Below, piece by piece: positions 3,988-15,656 of a DNA stretch of 64,000 nt. The stretch lies in the NCBI GenBank assembly GCA_030827315.1, contig JAURER010000012.1, positions 1-64,000 on the forward strand, written 5' to 3'. Within the stretch, counting starts at the first letter, position 1. The number at the start of each line of letters is the position of its first letter. Under the pieces are notes generated by a model. It was given only the letters and a program-made list of their open reading frames with translations, did not search any database and was not told the origin of the DNA. The translations under genes and the position numbers were made by a program. Source of the stretch: Gemmatimonadota bacterium (lineage in GTDB: Bacteria > Gemmatimonadota > Gemmatimonadetes > Longimicrobiales > Gaopeijiaceae).

Positions 3988-4003
3988 CCGGTCGCGACCG
4001 GTC
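3986..4003. repeat. 18-base perfect palindrome between convergent genes
   Basis: GACCGGTCGCGACCGGTC overlaps the last two bases of the helicase stop codon and ends five bases before the ridA stop. It can form a seven-pair stem with a CGCG loop on either strand. The position suggests a shared bidirectional transcription end, but neither side has a clear T-run. Confidence 0.45.
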
Positions 4004-4008
4004 CGGTT

Positions 4009-4386
4009 CTAGCGCTTCTTCGCGACGAGCTCGATCTCGACTCGCGCGTTCATCGGCAGCCCGGCGACGCCGACGGTGGTTCGCGCGGGGAAGGGCGCGG
4101 TGAAGCGCGTCCGGTACGCTTCGTTCATCTCCGCGAAGTCACCCATGTCGGTGAGGTAGACGTTCACCTTCACGACGTCGTCCGAGCCCAGGCCGCCGTC
4201 AGCCAGCACCGCGAACAGGTTGTCGAAGCACTGGTGCGTCTGGTCCCCCACGCCCCCCACCTTGAGCTCGCCGGTCGAGGGATCGATCGGGGTCTGCCCC
4301 GAGCAGAAGACGTGCGTGCCGTCGTCGATGGCGTGGGAATACGGTCCGATGGCGGACGCCGTGGCGCTGCTGAGGGCTTTTCGCAC
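4009..4386 (-). CDS. ridA: RidA family enamine/imine deaminase
   Basis: A 125-residue Rid (YjgF/YER057c/UK114) protein. Family members hydrolyse reactive 2-aminoacrylate-type enamines/imines released by PLP enzymes. Seen here are the N-terminal AIGPYSHAI segment, the CSGQTPIDPSTGEL segment, and the C-terminal ARVEIELVA segment carrying the arginine that binds the substrate carboxylate. Length is standard. The start is GTG at 4386 with an AGGAG ribosome site five bases upstream. It follows a small membrane-protein gene by only eight bases and may be cotranscribed with it. Confidence 0.92.
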   Translation of the reverse strand: MRKALSSATASAIGPYSHAIDDGTHVFCSGQTPIDPSTGELKVGGVGDQTHQCFDNLFAVLADGGLGSDDVVKVNVYLTDMGDFAEMNEAYRTRFTAPFPARTTVGVAGLPMNARVEIELVAKKR

Positions 4387-4394
4387 GTCGGCTC

Positions 4395-4589
4395 CTAACG
4401 GATGATCGCCATCGGCAGGAGCACGACGTAGCCCAGCACAAGCAGGAGCGGGGCGGCCGTGATCGAGCCCTGGCCGAGCAGCCAGTAGCCCAGCGTGAGC
4501 GCCGCCAGACCCGCCAAGCCCAGAATGCCGTTCACCCGCGTGAACTTCAGCGCTGCGGGCGCTTCGCTCTTCGTCGTCTTTCGTGCCAT
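4395..4589 (-). CDS. Small two-helix membrane protein
   Basis: A 64-residue protein with a charged N-terminus (MARKTTKSEA), then two hydrophobic helices at about residues 20-38 and 44-62, and a short end. The layout resembles small DUF3098-type proteins, but I do not assign it. It lies between the NtrC-type regulator and ridA on the same strand with short gaps, so it may be at the tail of that transcription unit. Function unknown. Confidence 0.65.
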   Translation of the reverse strand: MARKTTKSEAPAALKFTRVNGILGLAGLAALTLGYWLLGQGSITAAPLLLVLGYVVLLPMAIIR

Positions 4590-4620
4590 GCGGGAATGCT
4601 AGACTGGGGGTGCGGGTGGG

Positions 4621-5946
4621 TCAATCGCGGCCCAGGCGCTCCCGCACCTCGTCCACGCCGATACCCAGCAGCTGCGCCGCCTCCGCTTCGTCCCCTCCGG
4701 CCCGGTCGAGCACGAGCCGGACATGCCGCTCAACGGCGGCTGCCAGCGTGAGCTCGTCCGAAGCCACACGCCGTCCACCCTCGAGGATCAGGTGGTCGGC
4801 GCCAATCACCGTGCCGCGGGCCACGATCGCCGCGCGCAGGAGCGCGTTTTCCAGCTCCCGGACGTTGCCGGGCCACGGGTACGCCCGCAGGCGCGCCATC
4901 GCGTCGTCGGAGATGCGGCGCACGTCTCGGCCCGTTTCTTCCCGTATCCGGCCGAGCAGGGCGGTGGCCACGAGCTCGATGTCGCCGGGGCGCTCGCGCA
5001 GCGGCGGCATCTCGATCTCGACGACCTTGAGCCGGAAGTAGAGGTCCTCGCGGAAGCGCCCCTCCTCGATCAGATGCTCGACGGGCTGATGCGTGGCGGC
5101 GATGACGCGGGCCTCGGTCGTGCGCGGCTGCTCTCCCCCGACGGGGTAGAAGCGTCGTTCCTGGAGCACGCGGAGCAGCTTCGTCTGAAAGTCCGGGCTC
5201 GTGTCTCCGATCTCGTCGAGGAAGATCGTGCCCCTGCCGGCGAGCTCGAAGTACCCCTTCCGGGCGCCGGTGGCGCCCGTGAACGCTCCCTTGACGTGCC
5301 CGAACAGCTCGGACTCCAGGAGGGTGTCCGTCAGCGCGGTGCAGTTCACGGCGATGAACGGCTCGGCCGAGTATTCGGAATTCTCGTGGATGCCCCGCGC
5401 GATGACCTCCTTGCCGGTCCCGGTCTCGCCGCGCACCAGGACCGTGGCCCGATTGGCCGAGAGCACGCCGATCGTCTTGTAGATGTCGATCATGCGCGGG
5501 TCCCTTCCGACCAGTCGGCCCCGCGGCAGCGCCGCGACCACGTCGGGGGTCTCCGTTGTCTCCACGAGTTCGCGCTCGCCAAAGCACCGGTCGGCCAGCG
5601 CCTGCACCACCTTGGGGTCTACAGGCTTGACCAGGAAGTCGAAGGCACCCGACTTCATCGCAGAGACAGCCGTCTCCATGTCGTCGTGGGCCGTCATGAC
5701 CACGACCTCCACGCCTTCCATCGAGCTCCGGATCCGGTCCAGGAGCTCGAGACCGGTCATCCCCGACATGCGCACGTCGGTCACGACGAGGCCGGGATCG
5801 AAGGCGGCGACGCGCGCGAGAGCCTTCTCCGCGCTCTCGGCCGTCTCGACTTCGTAGCCGGCATGCGTCAGACGCATCTCGAGCACTTCGAGGCCGTCGG
5901 TGTCGTCGTCGACGACGAGGATGCGGTGCCGGACAGGTTCGCTCAT
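4621..5946 (-). CDS. NtrC-type sigma-54-dependent response regulator
   Basis: A 441-residue three-domain regulator. Residues 8-120 are a receiver with acidic residues D13-D15, phospho-acceptor D57, T85 and K107. Residues 145-375 are a sigma-54 AAA+ domain with Walker A GETGTGKE (173-180), the sigma-54-contacting GAFTGA loop (220-225) and Walker B IFLDEIGD (241-248). Residues 402-441 are a Fis-type helix-turn-helix. It should activate sigma-54 promoters when phosphorylated by a histidine kinase, but no kinase lies in the window. It starts eight bases after the metallopeptidase-like gene, so it is probably the last main gene of the DnaA-like operon. The frame is open far upstream, but homology and spacing support the ATG at 5946. 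Confidence 0.9.
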   Translation of the reverse strand: MSEPVRHRILVVDDDTDGLEVLEMRLTHAGYEVETAESAEKALARVAAFDPGLVVTDVRMSGMTGLELLDRIRSSMEGVEVVVMTAHDDMETAVSAMKSGAFDFLVKPVDPKVVQALADRCFGERELVETTETPDVVAALPRGRLVGRDPRMIDIYKTIGVLSANRATVLVRGETGTGKEVIARGIHENSEYSAEPFIAVNCTALTDTLLESELFGHVKGAFTGATGARKGYFELAGRGTIFLDEIGDTSPDFQTKLLRVLQERRFYPVGGEQPRTTEARVIAATHQPVEHLIEEGRFREDLYFRLKVVEIEMPPLRERPGDIELVATALLGRIREETGRDVRRISDDAMARLRAYPWPGNVRELENALLRAAIVARGTVIGADHLILEGGRRVASDELTLAAAVERHVRLVLDRAGGDEAEAAQLLGIGVDEVRERLGRD

Positions 5947-5954
5947 GGGGGTTC

Positions 5955-7067
5955 CTACACCGGAAGTCCGTCGCGGGGGTCCCTCGGCTCCGGCGGCGCA
6001 CCGACGCCGGCCTCGGGCTCGCGCCAGAAGGCGGGCGCGTCGGGAAGCTCCTTCGCTCGCAAGCGCGCGAGCTTCTCTCGATCTCGCCCCTGCCGACCGT
6101 GCATCATGAAGAGGAGGACGAGTGCCAGGAACAGCCAGAACACCGCCGAGTGGCTGAGCACGAAAAGCCAGCCGTATCGCTTTCGCACGTGCAGACGCCA
6201 GTCCTCCTCGAACTGGCTCGTCGTGAGCCCGAACGTCTCGCGGAAGGCCGGCTCGAACGATCGCTCCACCTTCCACCGGTCCAGAAAGACCGCGAGCCCG
6301 GCGTCGCCACTTCCCTCCAGGAGGTAGGTCACGGCGGTCGCGGCGAGCAGGTACGCCGTGCGCGCCTCCTCGCGTCCGGCGGGCCAGCGCAGTTCCAGGG
6401 AATCCATCGCCGGCGCGCGGCCGGCGGCGATCAGGACGCGGAGACGCCAGGCCTCCGAGGTCTCGAACCCGCCGGACGCCCACTGCGCGTACCCCTCGTT
6501 GAACCAGCGAGGCGCGCGAAGATCGCCCAGATGCTGCTGCAGGCCCAGGTGGGCCCACTCGTGGCGCAGCGTCCTGAGCCCCTCACCGTCCACGACCCGC
6601 ACTCCTTCCCCCATGGGCATGACCAGCAGACCGAGCATCGGAATCGCCACCCCCGCGCGCCACTCGGGGACGACGCCGCCGGTCATCTCGTCGAACGCCT
6701 CCGGCGTGTGGGCCAGAACCGCGTGTACCCCCTTCGGCAGGGTATCGGGCAGACCCGGCAGGCTCGGCTGGGCGTCGAGCAGATCGCGGACGCGCACGGC
6801 GACGAGGGAGTCGGCCGGCGCGGAGTGGACGGTCGCGCGACGGCCAGGCACCGCTCGATACGCCACACCGTCCAGCACCGCGGGCACGGGAGACGGCACG
6901 GGGTCGGCGGCCCGCCCACCCGGGACGGCCTGGGCATCCACGGCGAAATCCGGCTTCGAGGCGCCTCCGGCACCCACGGAAGGAGCTGACGACGAAGCGA
7001 TCAGGGCACACGCCAGCCCCGCGCCTGCGAGCCCCCCTACAGCTCTTCGGATCTCGAGTCGGGTCAC
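5955..7067 (-). CDS. Membrane-anchored HExxH protein, peptidase MA-like
   Basis: A 370-residue protein with an N-terminal hydrophobic signal (about residues 9-28), a putative zinc peptidase core with HEWAH (169-173) and a downstream WFNEG (E191 as possible third ligand), and one C-terminal membrane helix (about 301-322) followed by a basic cytoplasmic tail. The HExxH...E spacing and the surrounding ARWFNEG-type segment match gluzincins of the peptidase MA kind. It would act in the periplasm, tethered to the inner membrane. The start is GTG at 7067, four bases after the stop of the DUF4388/TPR gene. Substrate unknown. Part of the four-gene operon 10525-4621. Confidence 0.7.
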   Translation of the reverse strand: MTRLEIRRAVGGLAGAGLACALIASSSAPSVGAGGASKPDFAVDAQAVPGGRAADPVPSPVPAVLDGVAYRAVPGRRATVHSAPADSLVAVRVRDLLDAQPSLPGLPDTLPKGVHAVLAHTPEAFDEMTGGVVPEWRAGVAIPMLGLLVMPMGEGVRVVDGEGLRTLRHEWAHLGLQQHLGDLRAPRWFNEGYAQWASGGFETSEAWRLRVLIAAGRAPAMDSLELRWPAGREEARTAYLLAATAVTYLLEGSGDAGLAVFLDRWKVERSFEPAFRETFGLTTSQFEEDWRLHVRKRYGWLFVLSHSAVFWLFLALVLLFMMHGRQGRDREKLARLRAKELPDAPAFWREPEAGVGAPPEPRDPRDGLPV

Positions 7068-7071
7068 GCCA

Positions 7072-8691
7072 CTACTCGCCGGCGAGCATCTCCAGGTTCG
7101 CCTTGACGGCCTCGTTGTAGGGATTGAGGTCGAGAGCACGGCGCCAGAGCAGGAGCGCCACGTCCCGGTCGCTGCCGCGGTATGCCATCGTGCCGAGTCG
7201 CAGGTACACGTCGTCGCCGAGCCGCGGTGCGAGCTTCACAGCCTTCTCGTACTGGGCGCGGGCCCCGTCCATGTCTCCATGCGCGTACGCCTGGTCTCCG
7301 AGGTTCTTGTGCGCCTGAGGCAGGGGCGGACTGGTCTGGGTCGCGCGCTTGTACAGCGCCGCCGCGGCCTCGAACTCTCCGCGCCGCTCGAGTACCTGGC
7401 CCGTGTTGACCAGGATGGGCCCGGAGTCGGGGTAGTGCCCGAGGCCCTCCCGACCCACCGCGACCGAGTAGTCGAGGTCGCCGGCCACGGCCGAGGCGAG
7501 GACGGTGTACGCGTAATAATGCTGACTCGGACGCCTGACCTGTGGATTGGTCCGATAGATCCGCAGCGCATCGAGGGCACTGGACACGTCGCCCCGCTTC
7601 ACGTGGATGATGGCGCGGGCGAGGTGGACATCGGCGTCGGTGGGCTTGGCGACCAGGGCCTCGTCGAGCAACCCCAGCGCCTCGTCGTATCGCCCCATGA
7701 CCTCCAGAATCAGTGCGGTGTTGCGGGAGACCGAGTAGCTGTCGGCGGCGCCAGGAGGCATGGCACGAAAATGACCCAGGGCCTCCTCGAGACGGCCCCT
7801 CCGGAACGCGATCAGCCCCATCATGAACTGGGCTCGGGCCTGCTTCGGTTCGATGACGAGCGCCTGCTCGAACTCCCGGGCCGCGTCCTCCATCATACCG
7901 GAGCGGTAGAACGCGATTCCGACGTTGAGGGCCTGCTGGAGCGCTTCGTCGCCGCCCGTCTCCTCGGACGTGCTGCGCTCGCCGGCCCGTGACATGAAGC
8001 CGGCCTGGATGAGGCCGTAGAGGGCCTTGCCGGTGTCGAACTCGACGAGGCCGGCCTCGTTCATGATCTCGTCGACCGTCCGCACGCCGTTGATGTAGGG
8101 AAGGACCTTCCTCTGATCCTTGGTCAGTTCCACCTCCTCGTCCGACTCGTCGGGGTTCTTATCGAGCTGGAAGACGATATCGAACGACGGGATCTTCTTT
8201 TCGATCTGGCTCCACTCGTCGACCCGCCGCGCGCCCTCCATGAGGAGTGCCTCGGGGGGGAGGCTCACCAGGAAGATCCCCTCCTCGTCGGGCATCTGGT
8301 CCGTGTCGAAGTGGAACGACCCCTGGTGCCATGCGAAGAGGTGGTAGACCGCTTCCTCGATCTGGAGCTGGATGTACCTGTGCAGATCTTCCTCGGTCAG
8401 AGCCCCCTGCGCGACGAGGATCTGGCCCAGCCGCCTTCCGCGCTCCTGCGCCTGGCGCTCGGTGGCCGCGGACAGGTCCTTCCGCGTGATCACGTGGTTG
8501 CGGACCAGAAGCTCGCCAAGGCGGTCGCGTCGGTTCAGGACAGACGCGTAGATGACCCGGCCCTTCTTGAAATAGATGTAGCCGAAGTTCGAGCGGTCGG
8601 TGATGCTGAGGCACCCGGTCTTCATGCCCATGCCGAGCAGCTGGCAGATGTCCGCCAGGCTGACGTCCTGGAGCGCGCCTTCGATCGCCAT
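7072..8691 (-). CDS. DUF4388 (PatA-like) domain protein with TPR repeats
   Basis: A 539-residue protein. Residues 1-150 match the DUF4388/PatA N-terminal domain: the start MAIEGALQDVSLADICQLLG, then GYIYFKKGRVIYA, then a paired helical module built from RLGELLVRNHVITRKDL and RLGQILVAQGALTEEDL. A linker follows, then at least six tetratricopeptide-like repeats from about residue 250 to the end. Proteins of this sort are scaffolds in signalling or motility in cyanobacteria and myxobacteria. There is no signal peptide, so it is cytoplasmic. It starts 16 bases after the DnaA-like gene and ends just before the metallopeptidase-like gene. It could couple the ATPase to a partner; that is inference. 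Confidence 0.8.
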   Translation of the reverse strand: MAIEGALQDVSLADICQLLGMGMKTGCLSITDRSNFGYIYFKKGRVIYASVLNRRDRLGELLVRNHVITRKDLSAATERQAQERGRRLGQILVAQGALTEEDLHRYIQLQIEEAVYHLFAWHQGSFHFDTDQMPDEEGIFLVSLPPEALLMEGARRVDEWSQIEKKIPSFDIVFQLDKNPDESDEEVELTKDQRKVLPYINGVRTVDEIMNEAGLVEFDTGKALYGLIQAGFMSRAGERSTSEETGGDEALQQALNVGIAFYRSGMMEDAAREFEQALVIEPKQARAQFMMGLIAFRRGRLEEALGHFRAMPPGAADSYSVSRNTALILEVMGRYDEALGLLDEALVAKPTDADVHLARAIIHVKRGDVSSALDALRIYRTNPQVRRPSQHYYAYTVLASAVAGDLDYSVAVGREGLGHYPDSGPILVNTGQVLERRGEFEAAAALYKRATQTSPPLPQAHKNLGDQAYAHGDMDGARAQYEKAVKLAPRLGDDVYLRLGTMAYRGSDRDVALLLWRRALDLNPYNEAVKANLEMLAGE

Positions 8692-8707
8692 CAGTCACGC
8701 GCCTCCA

Positions 8708-10525
8708 TCAGTCGAGCTCCTCGATGAGCAGCTGCTCGAAGCGCGGCCAGTGTATCACCGCGTTCTCGGGTCCGGGGAACCAGGCACCTCCCTTCTTGGC
8801 GGTGGCCTCGACGGGAACAGGCCGGGGCTTGCGGCCGCCAGCGCCATCACGCGCGTCGTCGAGCCCCGGCAGGAAGATCGTGTCTTCCCTTTCGCTGGAT
8901 TCCTGCACCTCCAGCAGCTCGAGCGGCACGCTCTCGCCGGCCGTGATCTCGAGCACCAGCCCACCTTCGAAGCGCGAACGCATGCGGTCATCGATATCGC
9001 CGATGTCGCCGGGGGCGCGATCGGCGACGAACATCATGCGCGCGCCGCGGCGACGCAGCGCCTCGAAGAGGTGGAAGAACTCGTCCTGAGCCCGTTCCGT
9101 CGCGACCAGCTCCTGAATGCCGAAGACGAGCAGAAGGTCGACCGTCCACCACCGTTCGCGCCACGCCCCGGCCACGCCCTGACCGAGAGCCCGGATGAAG
9201 TCCGCGGCGAACAACTCGACGGAGCTGACCGCCATGGTCAGGTCCGGGTAGGACTCGTGGTACGTTCGCCCCGCGGCGCCCAGGAGCGTGCGCGCCACCT
9301 TCTCGTCTGTGGACCACATGTAGAGCGGGTTGTATTCGGGTCTTTCGGCGCCCACGAGCTGCGTGGTGGCCTTGAGCACCAGGCTCTCGAAGCCCTGGAG
9401 CTCCTGAAGACGCGGGCCCTCGCCCAGCGACGGGAACGGCCTCTGACGCTCCTGCACCGAGGTCAGAAGCGCCTCCGCCTCGTCCACGCGGTCGGGGTCC
9501 TCGAGCACGCCCTGAGCGGCCTCAGGCCAGGGATTGCCGAGCCTGGCGAGCTCGTTGTCGATCTCGTGCAGACGCTGCAGGTCGGCTTTGTATCGGTCGA
9601 TCGCCGCCTGCCAGCCCTTCGGCTCCTTCACGCTTTCGAGCAGGGGTGCCAGGCGCAGCGTCGAGAAGCCCTGTCGATCTGCGGTTTCGATGGCCTCCCG
9701 GATCGCCTTCCTCCAGGGCTCCTCCTTCTGCTCGACGACCTGAGCCACGGAGAACGCCAGGTCGTCGAGGAAAGAGCCGAACTCGTCCGGTCCGGACCCG
9801 AGCGACGCCGCCTTGTCCTGTTGCTTGAGGAGCTTCGCGACCTCGTCGACCGCGACCCGGCGCTCTTCCAGGTCCTGCGTGGCGAAGATCTTGTTGAGGA
9901 TCCCGCCCAGCTCCCGGACGTTCCTCAGGGGCGCCTTGGCGACCGCCTCGGCGACCCCGGGCTCCAGCTTCTGACCGCGATCCGACGCCTTGCGGAGGAT
10001 GATCGCGACGCGTGTCTCGTACTCGGGGATCCCCAGATCTACGATCAGCCCACCGGAGAAGCGCGACAGCAGGCGCGCGTCCAGACCGTTGATGTCGCCG
10101 GGCGGCCGGTCGCTGGCCAGGACGATCTGCCCGCCCGATGACGTAAGCTGGTCCAGCGTGCGCAGGAGCATCTCCTGGGCCTCGGGCTGCCCAGTGAGAA
10201 ACTGCACGTCGTCGATGAGGAGGAGGTCGAGGTCTCCGTAGACGCCGGCCTCCGATCGACCCGACTGCAAGCGCGCCTCGAGCCGCTGGAGGTACTGTTC
10301 GAGCGCCATGTACTCGACCTTCCGCTCCTCGCTCGCCGCCTGAGCCCGATGAGCGATCGCCGTCAGGATGTGCGTCTTTCCGAGCCCCGGGGCTGAGTAG
10401 AGGAAGAGCGGGTTGTAGCTCGTCCCCGGCGACTCCGCGGCACGACGCGCCGCCGCCAACGCCAGCCGATTGGCCGGGCCGACCACGAACGAGTCGAACG
10501 TCAGTTTCGGATCGAGTTCGGACAT
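8708..10525 (-). CDS. DnaA-like protein with two tandem ATPase domains, the second degenerate, no DNA-binding domain
   Basis: A 605-residue protein. It begins directly at DnaA domain III (KLTFDSFVVGPANRLALAAA), with Walker A SAPGLGKTH at 44-52, Walker B LLLIDDVQF at 101-109, and LLSRFSGGL at 152-160 like the DnaA arginine-finger region. Domains I, II and the domain IV helix-turn-helix of DnaA are absent. After a helical linker (about 240-375) a second copy of the fold appears: NPLYMW at 399-404, VDLLLVFGIQEL at 462-473, and DDRMRSRFEGGL at 512-523. In it the P-loop (STDEKVART) and the Walker B acids are lost. The protein ends WPRFEQLLIEELD. It is not the replication initiator. Hda-like regulators share the domain III fold, but the double architecture suggests a different role. 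First gene of the operon. Confidence 0.8.
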   Translation of the reverse strand: MSELDPKLTFDSFVVGPANRLALAAARRAAESPGTSYNPLFLYSAPGLGKTHILTAIAHRAQAASEERKVEYMALEQYLQRLEARLQSGRSEAGVYGDLDLLLIDDVQFLTGQPEAQEMLLRTLDQLTSSGGQIVLASDRPPGDINGLDARLLSRFSGGLIVDLGIPEYETRVAIILRKASDRGQKLEPGVAEAVAKAPLRNVRELGGILNKIFATQDLEERRVAVDEVAKLLKQQDKAASLGSGPDEFGSFLDDLAFSVAQVVEQKEEPWRKAIREAIETADRQGFSTLRLAPLLESVKEPKGWQAAIDRYKADLQRLHEIDNELARLGNPWPEAAQGVLEDPDRVDEAEALLTSVQERQRPFPSLGEGPRLQELQGFESLVLKATTQLVGAERPEYNPLYMWSTDEKVARTLLGAAGRTYHESYPDLTMAVSSVELFAADFIRALGQGVAGAWRERWWTVDLLLVFGIQELVATERAQDEFFHLFEALRRRGARMMFVADRAPGDIGDIDDRMRSRFEGGLVLEITAGESVPLELLEVQESSEREDTIFLPGLDDARDGAGGRKPRPVPVEATAKKGGAWFPGPENAVIHWPRFEQLLIEELD

Positions 10526-10547
10526 CGGGATGTGCGCGCGTGCAACA

Positions 10548-10580
10548 GTTCGGTCCGGCCGTCGCTGATCCGGTCCGAAC
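10548..10580. repeat. 11-base inverted repeat in the leader of the DnaA-like gene
   Basis: GTTCGGTCCGG (10548-10558) and CCGGTCCGAAC (10570-10580) are reverse complements except for one central mismatch, with an 11-base spacer. It sits 22-55 bases upstream of the ATG at 10525. No T-run follows toward the gene. It could be an operator or a 5' leader hairpin. Confidence 0.5.
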
Positions 10581-10583
10581 CTT

Positions 10584-10612
10584 TAAGTATCGGCGACCGG
10601 ATCCCATAACAA
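10584..10612 (-). promoter_or_regulatory. Weak candidate promoter for the DnaA-like operon
   Basis: On the minus strand TTGTTA (10607-10612) is followed 17 bases later by TACTTA (10584-10589), or 15 bases later by GATACT (10586-10591). Both are poor -10 matches. The location in the only AT-rich patch of a 118-base gap, upstream of the inverted repeat, is the main support. Confidence 0.3.
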
Positions 10613-10643
10613 AAGGGCTTCGGCCGGATCGGACGGGCCCGTC

Positions 10644-11603
10644 TCACGCCTCGCGCGCCCAGGCCGCCACCGCGGCCAGGTCGGCTGGGAGTTCCGCGCG
10701 GAAACGCATGATCTCCGCAGTCTCGGGGTGCCGGAACACGAGCTCCGAGGCATGCAGGAACTGGCGGCGCGCGCGCCGTGCCAGCTCCTCGACCCACCGC
10801 CGGGTCGGGCCACCGAGCCCGCGCTCCCAGCCCAGTCCGTACAGCGCGTCGCCGACCACGGGGTGCCCGATGGAGGCGAGATGAACGCGAATCTGGTGCG
10901 TGCGGCCGGTCTTGAGCGCGACGTCCAGCAGCTCGGCCCGGAGCCATCGTTCCCGAACCTCTGCCCTCGTGACCGCGCGCCGGCCGCCCTCGACGACCGC
11001 CATACGCTTGCGGTCGCGCGGGTCACGCGCGATCGGTGCGTCGATGATCGTCGGCGACTCGGACAGGTGCCCCCACGCGGCCGCGACGTAAAGACGCTTC
11101 ACCCGCCGGCGCCGAAGCGCGTCGGCGAGCACCCGATGGGCCCGGTCGGTCTTCGCCACCACCAGCAGGCCCGAGGTGTCGCGGTCGAGGCGATGGACGA
11201 TGCCCGGCCTGGCACGTCCCCCCACACCTGAGAGTTGCGGGGCGTGCCAGAGGAGCGCGTTGACGAGCGTGCCGGTTCTGTGCCCGGGCGCGGGGTGAAC
11301 CACCATCCCCGCCGCCTTGTTCACGACGATGATGTGCTCGTCCTCGAAGAGGACGTCGAGCGGAATCTCTTCCGCGTCGATCGCCACGGACTCAGGGGCC
11401 GGCACTTCGACGCGCACGACCGCTCCCGGCTCCAGCCGCTCGGACTTTCTCGCCGGCCTGCCGTCGACGACGATGCGGCCTTCGGCGAGGAGCTTCTGGA
11501 CCCGCGTCCGCGACAGGTCGAGACGTTCGGCCACGAAGCGGTCGAGGCGGTCCCCACCCTCTCCGACGGTGAGCAACCGGTACGCAGGGGCGGAATCGCT
11601 CAC
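10644..11603 (-). CDS. rluD: RluA/RluD family rRNA pseudouridine synthase
   Basis: A 319-residue pseudouridine synthase. An S4 RNA-binding domain is at about residues 10-70 (RLDRFVAERLDLSRTRVQKL). The catalytic domain carries HRLDRDTSG with the nucleophilic aspartate near residue 140 and the later RTHQIRVHLASIGHP motif. RluD modifies helix 69 of 23S rRNA; the exact target here is inferred. The start is GTG at 11603, overlapping the ileS stop by the GTGA arrangement and preceded by AAAGGCAGG. An upstream GTG inside ileS (11630) is less likely. The usual lspA gene between ileS and rluD is missing at this locus. Confidence 0.9.
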   Translation of the reverse strand: MSDSAPAYRLLTVGEGGDRLDRFVAERLDLSRTRVQKLLAEGRIVVDGRPARKSERLEPGAVVRVEVPAPESVAIDAEEIPLDVLFEDEHIIVVNKAAGMVVHPAPGHRTGTLVNALLWHAPQLSGVGGRARPGIVHRLDRDTSGLLVVAKTDRAHRVLADALRRRRVKRLYVAAAWGHLSESPTIIDAPIARDPRDRKRMAVVEGGRRAVTRAEVRERWLRAELLDVALKTGRTHQIRVHLASIGHPVVGDALYGLGWERGLGGPTRRWVEELARRARRQFLHASELVFRHPETAEIMRFRAELPADLAAVAAWAREA

Positions 11604-14600
11604 TCGCCTGCCTTTCTCAGCCCGATCCACGCGGCGGTGCCGTCGATGTCGACCTCGCGCACATGCGCGTACCCGGCGGGTGCCGCCGAATCGGCGAGCT
11701 CGAGCGCCTCCGCGAGCGTCTCGCCCGTGAGGAACGCCCGGTGCACCTCCGCGGCGCCTCGGATCCCCTCGGGCCCTCCGATGACGAGCTGGATACGATC
11801 CGTGATCTCGAGCCCGGCGTCCTTCCGCAGGTTCTGGATTCGGTTCACGAGTTCGCGCGCCATCCCTTCGGCGCGCAGCTCGTCGTCCAGCTCGGCATCG
11901 AGCGCCACGGTGTAGGCTCCCTCGCCCTTCACGACGAGGTCACCGGCTGCCTCCTGGATGACCTCCAGGTCACCTTCTTGCAGCCCGTGGGCCGTGTCGC
12001 CCACCGTGATCTCCACGGGGTGACCGGCCTGGTACCGGGTGAGCGCATCCTGATCGAGGGCACGGATCGCGTTCGCGGCATCGTTGGTCTGCTTGCCGAA
12101 GCGCTGTCCGAGCGAACGGTAGTTCGGCTTGCCGGTCAGCGTGACGATCCCCCCGGCCGACGACAGAAGGCCGACCTCCTTTACGTTCAGCTCGTCGCGT
12201 ACCACGTCGAGCATCGCGGGCGAGAGCGTGCGCCCTCCGGGCACGACCGCCCGCGCGGAGCGAAGCGGCTGCCGTACCCGGATGCCGACCTCCTCGCGAG
12301 CGGCACGCCCCAGCGACACCAGAGCGCGGACGTCCGCCATGTCCGCCTCGAGGTCCTCACCGGCGAGAAGCGCGCCGCGCTCCGCGTCGGTGAGGGCCGC
12401 GGGGAAGCGCTCCAGATGGACGCTGGAGCCGGTCAGCGCCCGGTGGATCCAGTCGGACGCGAACGGCGTGCACGGTGCCGCCAGGGTCACGACCTGCCGC
12501 AGCGTGTCGTAGAGCGTCCGGAAAGCCGCGCGCTGGTCCACCGCGTCCCGACTCCCCCAGAAGCGCGACCGGTTCCGGCGCACGTACCAGTTCGAGAGGT
12601 CCTCGACCACGAAGTCGCCGAGCGCGCGATAGGCGCGTGTGAGCTGGTACCCGTCGAGCTCGGCTCTCACCTCGCCGACCAGCGTGTCGAGGCGGGCGAG
12701 GAGCCAGCGGTCGAGCAGCGGACGGTCCTCAGGCGCAGGGTCCGCGTCGCTCGGTGTCCAGCCTTCCACCGACGCGTAGAGACGGAAGAAGCGGTATGTG
12801 TTGAAGCAGGTGTCGAAGAACTTTCCCGCGGACTCGCGAACTCCGGCCGGGTCGTAGCGCTTGGGCAGCCAGGGATTGGAAGACGTGATGAAGTACCACC
12901 GCACCGCGTCCGCTCCGTGGTCGCCGATGGCGTCCCAGGGATTCACGACGTTGCCCCGCGACTTCGACATCTTGCGGCCCTCGGCGTCGAGCACGAGGTC
13001 GTTGACCAGGCAGTTCCTGAACGCGGGGCCCCGCCCGAGCATCGTCGAGATCGCCAGCAGCGAATAGAACCACCCCCGCGTCTGGTCGAGTCCCTCGCAG
13101 ATGAAGTTCGCCGGAAAGTGATCCTCGAACTCCTGCTCGTTCTCGAAGGGGTAGTGCCACTGCGCGTACGGCATGGCACCGGAATCGAACCACACGTCGA
13201 TGACCTCGGGCGTCCGGCGCATGGTCCCGCCACACTGCCGGCACCCCCATGTCAGCTCGTCGATGAAGGGGCGGTGCGGGTCGAAGTCGTCCGCCAGCGG
13301 GCCCGCGGCGTCCGCCAGGTCGGCGAGAGAGCCGATCCAGTGGAGATGATCGCGGTCCCGGTCGCACACCCAGACGGGCAGCGGCGTGCCCCAGTACCGG
13401 TCGCGGGAGAGCGCCCAGTCGACGTTGCCCCGCAGCCACTCGCCGAATCGCTTTTCACCCACCTCGGGCGGATGCCACGCGATCCGGTCGTTGTTGGCGA
13501 GGAGCTCGGCCTTCAGCGTGGAAGTCGCCGCGAACCATGAGTCGATCGCCACGTAGAGCAGCGGGGAATCACAGCGCCAGCAGTGCGGATAGCTGTGCTC
13601 GACCCTGCCGATGTCGAAGAGAAGTCCGCGCTCGCGGAGCGCCTCGACCAGCTCGGGATCGGCGTCCTTAACGAACATCCCGCCCACCAGAGCGACGTCG
13701 GGGGTGAAGCACCCCGCCCCGTCGATGGGGTTGAGCATGGGAAGCCCGTGCCGCTGCCCGGCGGCATAATCGTCCGCTCCGAAGGCGGGTGCCATGTGCA
13801 CGATGCCCGTTCCGTCCTCGGCGCTCACGAAGTCTTCGGCGACCACCGTCCAGCCGTTGGCGGCGTCCTGCGGCTCGGCCACCAGGTCGAGCGGGCGCCG
13901 GTAGCGCCATCCTACCATGTCGGCGCCCTGGAGCCGACCGACGACCTCGCGCTCCTCGCCGAAGATCGCTTCGGCTCGCGCCTCGGCCACGATGTAGCGG
14001 CGCCCGTCCCGCGCCACCTCGACGTACGTCAGATCAGGGTGCACGGCCAGACCCGCGTTCGACGGCACCGTCCATGGCGTGGTGGTCCAAGCCAGAATGG
14101 CCCGGCCGTCCGGATCGGGGCGCCCGTCGGCGCCGAGCACCTCGGCGACGAAGGTCAGCGACGGGTCAAAGACGTCGCGGTACCCCTGCGCGACCTCGTG
14201 CGACGAGAGCGCGGTGCCGCAACGGGGACAGTACGGGACGCTCTTGTGCCCCCGGTAGAGAAGCCCCCGGTCGGCGATCGTCTTGAGGATGTGCCAGACG
14301 GACTCCACGTACGGGGTGTGGAAGGTCACGTAGGGGCGCCAGTACTCGAGCCAGTAGCCGATGCGCTCGCTGAGTTCCTCCCATTCCTCCTTGTACGTGA
14401 AGACGGAGTCCTTGCACGCCTGATTGAACTCGGCGATGCCCAGCGCCTCGATGTCGGGCTTGCCGCTGATACCCAGCTTCTTCTCCGCCTCGATCTCCAC
14501 CGGGAGCCCGTGCGTGTCCCACCCGGCGATGCGCGTCACGCTGTGACCGAGCATGGCCCGATGACGGCAGACGAGGTCCTTGATGGTGCGGCTCAGGATG

Positions 14601-14770
14601 TGGTGCAGACCCGGCCGCCCGTTCGCGGTCGGGGGACCCTCGTAGAATACGAAACGCTCGCCCCCTGCGTTGGCCTCGAGGGTCTGCCGGAACAGGTCCT
14701 CCTCGTGCCAGCGCCGGAGTGTCTCCTCCTCGATGTCGAGCAGGGTCTTCGGCAGTTCGGGATAGCTCAT
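11600..14770 (-). CDS. ileS: Isoleucyl-tRNA synthetase, type 2, with a GxHH signature motif
   Basis: A 1056-residue class I synthetase charging tRNA-Ile. The nucleotide-binding signature is NGRPGLHHILSRTIKD, so the usual HxGH is replaced by G54-L-H-H57. KMSKS is near residue 600 (GRKMSKSRGN). The editing (CP1) region includes GWDTHGLPVE upstream and a CPRCG knuckle. After the anticodon-binding domain comes a DUF5915-type C-terminal extension (about residues 880-1056, with the NVKEV segment) instead of the zinc domain of type 1 enzymes, which marks it as IleRS2. It is probably the only IleRS of the cell, but that cannot be judged from one window. It precedes rluD with overlap and follows PNP by 61 bases. 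Confidence 0.93.
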   Translation of the reverse strand: MSYPELPKTLLDIEEETLRRWHEEDLFRQTLEANAGGERFVFYEGPPTANGRPGLHHILSRTIKDLVCRHRAMLGHSVTRIAGWDTHGLPVEIEAEKKLGISGKPDIEALGIAEFNQACKDSVFTYKEEWEELSERIGYWLEYWRPYVTFHTPYVESVWHILKTIADRGLLYRGHKSVPYCPRCGTALSSHEVAQGYRDVFDPSLTFVAEVLGADGRPDPDGRAILAWTTTPWTVPSNAGLAVHPDLTYVEVARDGRRYIVAEARAEAIFGEEREVVGRLQGADMVGWRYRRPLDLVAEPQDAANGWTVVAEDFVSAEDGTGIVHMAPAFGADDYAAGQRHGLPMLNPIDGAGCFTPDVALVGGMFVKDADPELVEALRERGLLFDIGRVEHSYPHCWRCDSPLLYVAIDSWFAATSTLKAELLANNDRIAWHPPEVGEKRFGEWLRGNVDWALSRDRYWGTPLPVWVCDRDRDHLHWIGSLADLADAAGPLADDFDPHRPFIDELTWGCRQCGGTMRRTPEVIDVWFDSGAMPYAQWHYPFENEQEFEDHFPANFICEGLDQTRGWFYSLLAISTMLGRGPAFRNCLVNDLVLDAEGRKMSKSRGNVVNPWDAIGDHGADAVRWYFITSSNPWLPKRYDPAGVRESAGKFFDTCFNTYRFFRLYASVEGWTPSDADPAPEDRPLLDRWLLARLDTLVGEVRAELDGYQLTRAYRALGDFVVEDLSNWYVRRNRSRFWGSRDAVDQRAAFRTLYDTLRQVVTLAAPCTPFASDWIHRALTGSSVHLERFPAALTDAERGALLAGEDLEADMADVRALVSLGRAAREEVGIRVRQPLRSARAVVPGGRTLSPAMLDVVRDELNVKEVGLLSSAGGIVTLTGKPNYRSLGQRFGKQTNDAANAIRALDQDALTRYQAGHPVEITVGDTAHGLQEGDLEVIQEAAGDLVVKGEGAYTVALDAELDDELRAEGMARELVNRIQNLRKDAGLEITDRIQLVIGGPEGIRGAAEVHRAFLTGETLAEALELADSAAPAGYAHVREVDIDGTAAWIGLRKAGE

Positions 14771-14831
14771 CGGATTCGCGACGTGATGTTGTCGTGGATG
14801 TCGTCTGGGGTGACGCGGGGGTGCGTCGAAA

Positions 14832-15656
14832 TCAGATCCGGGACACCACCCGCTCGATGAGGCGGGTCAGGTGTGGTTCGGCGGCCCGGGCCGCCTCGAT
14901 AATTCGGTGCACGTCGACGGGCTCGAGCGCGTCGGGCAGGCACGCGTCCGTGATGATGCTCAGCCCGAGGACGCGCATGTCACCGTGTCGCGCGACGATG
15001 ACCTCGGGAACGGTGGACATCCCGACCACGTCGGCACCGAGAGCCCGAAGCATGCGGTACTCCGCCCGCGTCTCGAGCTGCGGGCCGGGCACAGCCACGT
15101 AGACACCCCGGTGCAGCTGGATCCCGAGCTCGAGCGCCTCGGACATGGCGATGCGCTGCAGCTCCCGGTCGTAGGGCTCGGACATGTCCGGAAAGCGGGG
15201 GCCGAGCTCGTCGACGTTCGGCCCCACGAGCGGGCTGTCTCCGAGGAGGTTGATGTGGTCGTCGATCAGAACCAGCTCTCCCACACCCCAGAGTGGATTC
15301 ATCCCGCCCGACACGTTGGACACCACGAGCGTCCCGGCCCCGAGCGCGCGCAGGACCCGGACCGGAAAGGTCACCTCCTGGAGCGTGTACCCCTCGTACC
15401 GGTGGAATCGTCCCTGCATGACCGCGACGGGGGTGCCCGCCAGCGTCCCCACCAGCAGTCGCCCCGAGTGCGACTCCACGGTCGGAACCGGGAAGCCCGG
15501 AATCTCCTCGTAGGGGATCGACGCCTGCACCTCCACCATCCGCGCCAGTCCCCCCAGCCCCGTGCCCAGCACGACGCCGACACGGACCGTGAGGTCGCTG
15601 TGCGCCCGGACGGACGCCACCGCGGCGTCGATGCGCCGGAGAAGCTCGTGCGACAT
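14832..15656 (-). CDS. Purine-nucleoside phosphorylase, trimeric family
   Basis: A 274-residue PNP of the trimeric (PunA/PNP-MTAP) family, splitting purine nucleosides with phosphate in salvage. Seen are the phosphate-binding GTGLGGL (31-37), HRYEGY (85-90), VSNVSGGMNP, the base-contacting E195 in GPQLETRAEYR, and the VGMST segment (211-215). At the position where 6-oxopurine-specific enzymes carry Asn (consensus ...TN...) this protein has Asp, in SIITDACLPD (D237), which suggests altered base preference. Only 17 bases separate its start from the divIVA stop, so it is in the yggS-divIVA transcription unit. Confidence 0.88.
   Translation of the reverse strand: MSHELLRRIDAAVASVRAHSDLTVRVGVVLGTGLGGLARMVEVQASIPYEEIPGFPVPTVESHSGRLLVGTLAGTPVAVMQGRFHRYEGYTLQEVTFPVRVLRALGAGTLVVSNVSGGMNPLWGVGELVLIDDHINLLGDSPLVGPNVDELGPRFPDMSEPYDRELQRIAMSEALELGIQLHRGVYVAVPGPQLETRAEYRMLRALGADVVGMSTVPEVIVARHGDMRVLGLSIITDACLPDALEPVDVHRIIEAARAAEPHLTRLIERVVSRI

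Follow-up and report, generated by a model that had tools for sequence, protein, structure and literature searches.

The known roles of DnaA-type ATPases lie in starting replication, as initiators or as regulators of these. DnaA molecules join head to tail via an ATP/Arg285 contact, and Arg281 of its box VII stabilises the oligomers (PMC5742627). In other AAA+ clades, an active unit can be paired with a degenerate one on a separate polypeptide: LAP1 and LULL1 are degenerate units that supply an arginine finger to Torsin, and delta' of the clamp-loader gamma-delta' pair is a further precedent for a dead AAA+ partner giving an arginine finger (PMC5425593). The MglA/MglB/RomR-Frz system of Myxococcus brings together a small GTPase, roadblock proteins and chemosensory genes, and SgmX is an MglA-TPR protein. 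The protein described here, encoded in a 64,000-nucleotide stretch of DNA from a Gemmatimonadota bacterium (the window), resembles each of these systems in part. We found no DnaA-type AAA+ component described in the MglA literature that we searched, and no earlier description of a tandem DnaA-AAA+ family in the open-access literature. In other phyla, which we searched by exact peptide patterns and in plasmids, a plasmid tblastn gave only plain DnaA among its best matches, and the one plasmid mglA found, in Deinococcus ficus, had a roadblock neighbour and no DnaA-like gene.

The gene (8708-10525) lies on the (-) strand, as do all parts of the protein and of its partner gene given below. It is an open reading frame for 605 aa with homologues across many Gemmatimonadota genomes. 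The Pfam Bac_DnaA profile, which has a cut-off of 23 bits, matched the protein twice, with 165 bits at residues 4-163 and 84-85 bits in the second half (E 1e-23 for that half alone); the repeat is therefore far beyond chance. The first match corresponds to copy 1, an intact DnaA domain III ATPase core (10037-10516) with a Walker A motif SAPGLGKT (residues 44-51, 10373-10396), a Walker B motif LLLIDD (residues 101-106, 10208-10225), and a box VII Arg151 and arginine finger Arg155 (10061-10075) that align with R281 and R285, respectively, of E. coli DnaA. The sequence and the alignment of relatives place a lid behind this core, with the sensor 2 residue Arg204 in NVREL (9821-10030), and copy 1 is in this sense a complete DnaA domain III. 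A helical middle region follows (residues 249-361, 9443-9781); it begins with a conserved EFxSFL helix, and had no match in Pfam and no credible match in the PDB. Copy 2 (residues 381-526, 8948-9385), which has no lid, was recognized by Pfam, AlphaFold2 and Foldseek as a DnaA domain III fold. According to the alignment of relatives, its P-loop is ruined (STDEKVART, residues 405-413, 9287-9313), as is its Walker B motif, which reads Phe-Gly (residues 468-469, 9119-9124), while box VII Arg514 and the arginine finger Arg518 (8972-8986) are retained. The C-terminal tail carries the motif WFPGPENAVIHWPRFEQLLIEELD (8711-8782), common to relatives with two copies, one copy or none. An Rfam scan of window positions 4000-15000 gave no match.

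The first-pass annotation of this DNA had proposed a duplicated DnaA ATPase fold, the second copy of which is catalytically dead, and both parts of this proposal held. The motifs it quoted are present in the reading frame: SAPGLGKTH, LLIDDVQFL and a box VII reading DARLLSRFSGG in copy 1, against STDEKVART, LLVFGIQEL and DDRMRSRFEGG in copy 2, where the ATP-binding residues of Walker A and Walker B are indeed lost. Modelled alone, copy 2 gave a confident AlphaFold2 prediction (pLDDT 94.5, pTM 0.89), and the best PDB matches of this model in Foldseek were the DnaA domain III structures 8btg and 8bv3 (TM 0.83-0.85, 1.3 A across 144-146 residues), with Hda ranked behind (TM 0.64-0.72); copy 1 matched 8bv3 with a TMt of 0.91. 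The AlphaFold2 confidence and the Foldseek matches thus predict a P-loop ATPase fold of the DnaA type for the second half. A chance repeat, or a false reading of the Walker motifs, was ruled out by the Pfam scores, the structure prediction for copy 2 and Foldseek. The full protein, run in AlphaFold2 with 18 family sequences, reached an overall pLDDT of 76.5, with about 90 for copy 2 and most of the middle region and a C-terminal stretch predicted to be disordered; its pTM was 0.48, and how the two ATPase domains sit relative to each other is therefore not predicted with confidence.

The tandem protein is neither DnaA nor Hda. Its score with the NCBIfam DnaA equivalog TIGR00362 (330.1 bits) is below the cut-off of 343.9, and so is its score with the Hda equivalog (106.1 bits, cut-off 194.8). 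The DnaA profile aligned only over positions 102-338 of 437, leaving domains I and IV unmatched, in keeping with the suggestion that domains I, II and IV are missing. Both copies share their fold, motif order, box VII and arginine finger with DnaA domain III (8btg, 8bv3, 1l8q), and copy 1 also shares Walker A and B, sensor 1 and sensor 2. Unlike DnaA, however, the protein has two copies per chain, the second of them dead in the window's own family (f1), lacks domains I, II and IV, and has an added helical middle and tail; the genes of its relatives are linked to mglA and che genes, and there is a separate, ordinary dnaA, found on another contig of the window's genome. It resembles Hda/HdaA as a DnaA-like AAA+ protein without a DNA-binding domain, but Hda has one AAA+ domain and the tandem protein is nearer to DnaA by Foldseek. 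One relative in family f5 (L055:5912-7852) scored 529 bits on TIGR00362, passing 343.9 only through the sum of two partial matches. Since NCBIfam sums two half matches in this way, two-copy relatives risk being annotated as DnaA, and the case serves as a warning that summed half-matches can lift such proteins past the DnaA equivalog cut-off.

Homologues in our phylum sample of 298 genomes, plus named genome contigs, fall in seven coded families. The two-copy architecture occurs in f1, f2, f4, f5 and f6, while f3 and f9 have one copy in a protein of about 400 aa. In an alignment of 51 relatives, the P-loop Lys and both Walker B Asp residues of copy 1 were kept throughout. The P-loop Lys of copy 2, by contrast, was present in 0/17 members of f1 vs. 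26/27 outside it, and the first Walker B Asp in 1/17 vs. 27/27, respectively. As these ATP-site residues are lost in f1 and kept elsewhere, the dead copy 2 is a state derived on the f1 stem. The active/inactive pair described in the first-pass annotation therefore stands for f1, but most relatives carry two intact copies. Among the members examined, those of f4 and f6 and some of f5 have a copy 2 lid, which f1 and f2 lack. In f2, copy 2 has kept the P-loop Lys, lost the second Walker B Asp in 2/4 members and lost the lid; judged by these motifs, f2 is intermediate between an intact and a dead copy 2. Two side observations concern individual relatives. In four one-copy members of f3 (L065, L066, L083 and L084), the sensor 2 Arg is replaced by His or Pro and the arginine finger stays. 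The second half of L018:5962-8964 is in the wrong frame, probably through a frameshift in a metagenome contig or because the gene is broken.

A tree of 116 domains grouped all copy 1s together (support 99) and all copy 2s together (support 98), with DnaA as a third group. Upon removal of two long rows, copies 1 and 2 came together against DnaA with a support of 88. A single tandem duplication is favoured by this tree, though not proven; with a support of only 88 for the joint group, a fusion of two DnaA domains may instead explain the pair. The capture of copy 2 as an independent, foreign AAA+ domain is not favoured, given the single copy 2 clade and the grouping of both copies against DnaA. 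That one copy 2 clade spans several Gemmatimonadota families indicates, at the level of the tree, that the pair is old. The f1 copy 2s lie next to f2 (support 93) on a long stem branch (1.04).

This long branch, together with the loss of the P-loop, Walker B and lid, could mean that f1 copy 2 is in decay and persists for no other use than as a folded spacer, a reading also consistent with the complete absence of copy 2 from f3 and f9. We consider it very unlikely. The f1 copy 2 is still conserved, with a mean pairwise identity of 0.59 within the family (copy 1, 0.68; tail region, 0.29), and it contains long invariant runs, among them GVAGAWRERWWT, EFFHL and SRFEGGLV, which show that selection is strong. 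Box VII Arg and the arginine finger of copy 2 (the equivalents of E. coli R281 and R285) are each kept in 17/17 members of f1.

The neighbourhood of the gene points away from replication. Outside f1, mglA lies directly upstream of the tandem gene in 30/33 loci, often overlapping it by 4 bp, and a DUF4388-TPR gene lies directly downstream in 33/33. The small GTPase, roadblock proteins and chemosensory genes that invite comparison with Myxococcus here form one operon, in the order CheC, TPR, DUF4388, TPR-roadblock, roadblock, roadblock, MglA, tandem DnaA-AAA+ gene, DUF4388-TPR, CheR, CheD, CheB and CheW; its roadblock proteins are MglB-like. In f1, the tandem gene lies behind ileS and rluD and is followed by the DUF4388-TPR gene, with mglA unlinked. 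Because rluD is also found near an operon in f4 (L139) and near an mglA locus in f5 (L135), the f1 locus may well be a collapsed form of the operon. The partner gene of the window (7072-8691), which adjoins the tandem gene downstream in nearly every locus, encodes a DUF4388 protein with TPRs and MshEN-like motifs of the c-di-GMP type. Two such 24-residue motifs (residues 57-80 and 87-110, 8362-8523) lie inside or next to DUF4388, with a score of 50.6 bits against NCBIfam NF053729 (cut-off 38) and a match to the 24-residue c-di-GMP binding motif of PMC5013675. This motif match suggests a possible c-di-GMP input via the partner. The first of the two motifs has a His at a Gly position. Two genes downstream of the tandem gene is a gene for an MA-superfamily peptidase (5955-7139), which other families also have downstream of their mglA/che operon.

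In the window's genome, we detected neither a CheW-domain protein nor, anywhere, a roadblock protein. Its one DUF4388 protein is the neighbour of the tandem gene, and the only mglA found (L093:2154-2732, contig C29) is near recR, in an order read from the open reading frames as cinA-pgsA-mglA-recR-dnaX. The genome also carries pilB-, pilT- and pilC-like genes, and with these type IV pili genes and its TPR partner the system recalls that of Myxococcus and SgmX. That the tandem gene is not next to mglA in f1 is a counterpoint to a role with MglA. The two genes nevertheless go together: at a threshold of E < 1e-60 and with seven ambiguous genomes excluded, an mglA match was present in 24/24 f1 genomes with the tandem gene vs. 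1/42 without it, counts that ignore phylogeny. Counted by genus, 16 had both genes and 10 had neither. Many of the genomes are metagenome-assembled, and some f1 absences may be gaps. Since the two genes are unlinked in f1, linkage cannot explain their co-occurrence. Close PilT matches followed the same pattern (20/24 with the tandem gene vs. 0/42 without it, again ignoring phylogeny), with some PilT match in 28/42 f1 genomes lacking the tandem gene. There are also lineages with an operon mglA and no ATPase gene.

Together, these data suggest that the tandem protein belongs with MglA, roadblock, DUF4388 and chemosensory genes and not with replication, and a replication role assigned by default from the DnaA fold was set aside on gene context and co-occurrence. 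A more specific alternative is that the protein regulates replication in an Hda-like or DnaA-inhibitory manner, joining DnaA filaments via its DnaA-type faces and triggering hydrolysis or blocking growth. DnaA domain III is its closest relative in sequence and fold, box VII and arginine-finger residues persist in both copies, and the alignment shows that copy 2 has retained the equivalents of the H/B ssDNA-contact positions of DnaA. We nonetheless find this alternative unlikely: quite apart from the mglA/roadblock/Che operon context and the Hda score, whole families and genera have an ordinary dnaA and no tandem gene, in f1 the gene is missing together with mglA, and the ATPase domains have been dropped in some lineages that retain the remainder of the protein.

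This last point emerges from the minimal forms. At L132, L137 and L135, mglA is next to the DUF4388-TPR gene, no DnaA-like gene was detected, and a short open reading frame lies between them (at about 6924-7145, 6750-6960 and 6197-6400, respectively), in which just two elements of the family are left, the EFxSFL helix and a C-terminal VxWP...IEEL tail. L133 keeps the middle and tail, and L134 one degenerate ATPase, the middle and the tail. These five loci identify the helix and tail as the constant part of the family, to which ATPase domains are optional additions.

These observations suggest that a replication ATPase has been put to a new use, the control of cell polarity or of movement on surfaces, and we infer a polarity or pilus role for the tandem protein. 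The constant adaptor of helix and tail would probably dock on either MglA or the DUF4388-MshEN-TPR partner. Two DnaA ATPase domains attached to it would serve as a module for assembly or switching under nucleotide control, and ATP may control assembly. In f1, the chemosensory and roadblock arm has gone, ATP binding and the lid have disappeared from copy 2, and copy 2 probably acts as a pseudo-ATPase. Like LAP1 and delta', copy 2 combines a predicted AAA+ fold without ATP-binding residues with a retained arginine finger, although here the two units are in one chain and of the DnaA clade. This finger probably serves the ATP site of copy 1, either in the same chain or in another one. The dimer-like unit proposed in the first-pass annotation for the active/inactive pair is our best mechanistic guess from the motifs, and it is strengthened by the retention of the copy 2 finger in 17/17 members of f1; copy 1, however, still has an arginine finger too, so contacts between one copy 1 and another could do the work. 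Overall, we give about even odds (roughly 0.5) to the reading that a DnaA-type AAA+ protein was recruited to an MglA/chemosensory/type IV pilus system, with f1 copy 2 as the donor of an arginine finger.

A different use of the same surfaces would be a DnaA-like polymer or cluster that marks the pole for MglA or pili, with copy 2 capping or spacing it and the finger serving only the interface. The head-to-tail ATP/Arg285 assembly of DnaA and the oligomer-stabilising Arg281 (PMC5742627) lend this some appeal, as does the retention of box VII and finger alike in copy 2. The AID-1 position, however, is Trp in f1 copy 2 and Arg in most other copy 2s, and we regard a polymer as doubtful.

The recruitment reading, if true, would give the DnaA-type ATPase fold a second career, in a family encoded within an MglA/chemosensory operon, and the Ras-like polarity systems of bacteria would gain an ATP-dependent component. 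Put at its boldest, and tentatively, a DnaA ATPase, as a single-chain pair on an MglA-linked adaptor, would be the switch of such a polarity system, and one lineage would have turned its second ATPase into a built-in finger donor. The phylum holds a natural series on one adaptor, with two active ATPases, an active and a dead one, a single one or none, from which the contribution of the ATPases could be read, and this graded series makes the origin of pseudo-ATPases from active tandem AAA+ domains directly testable.
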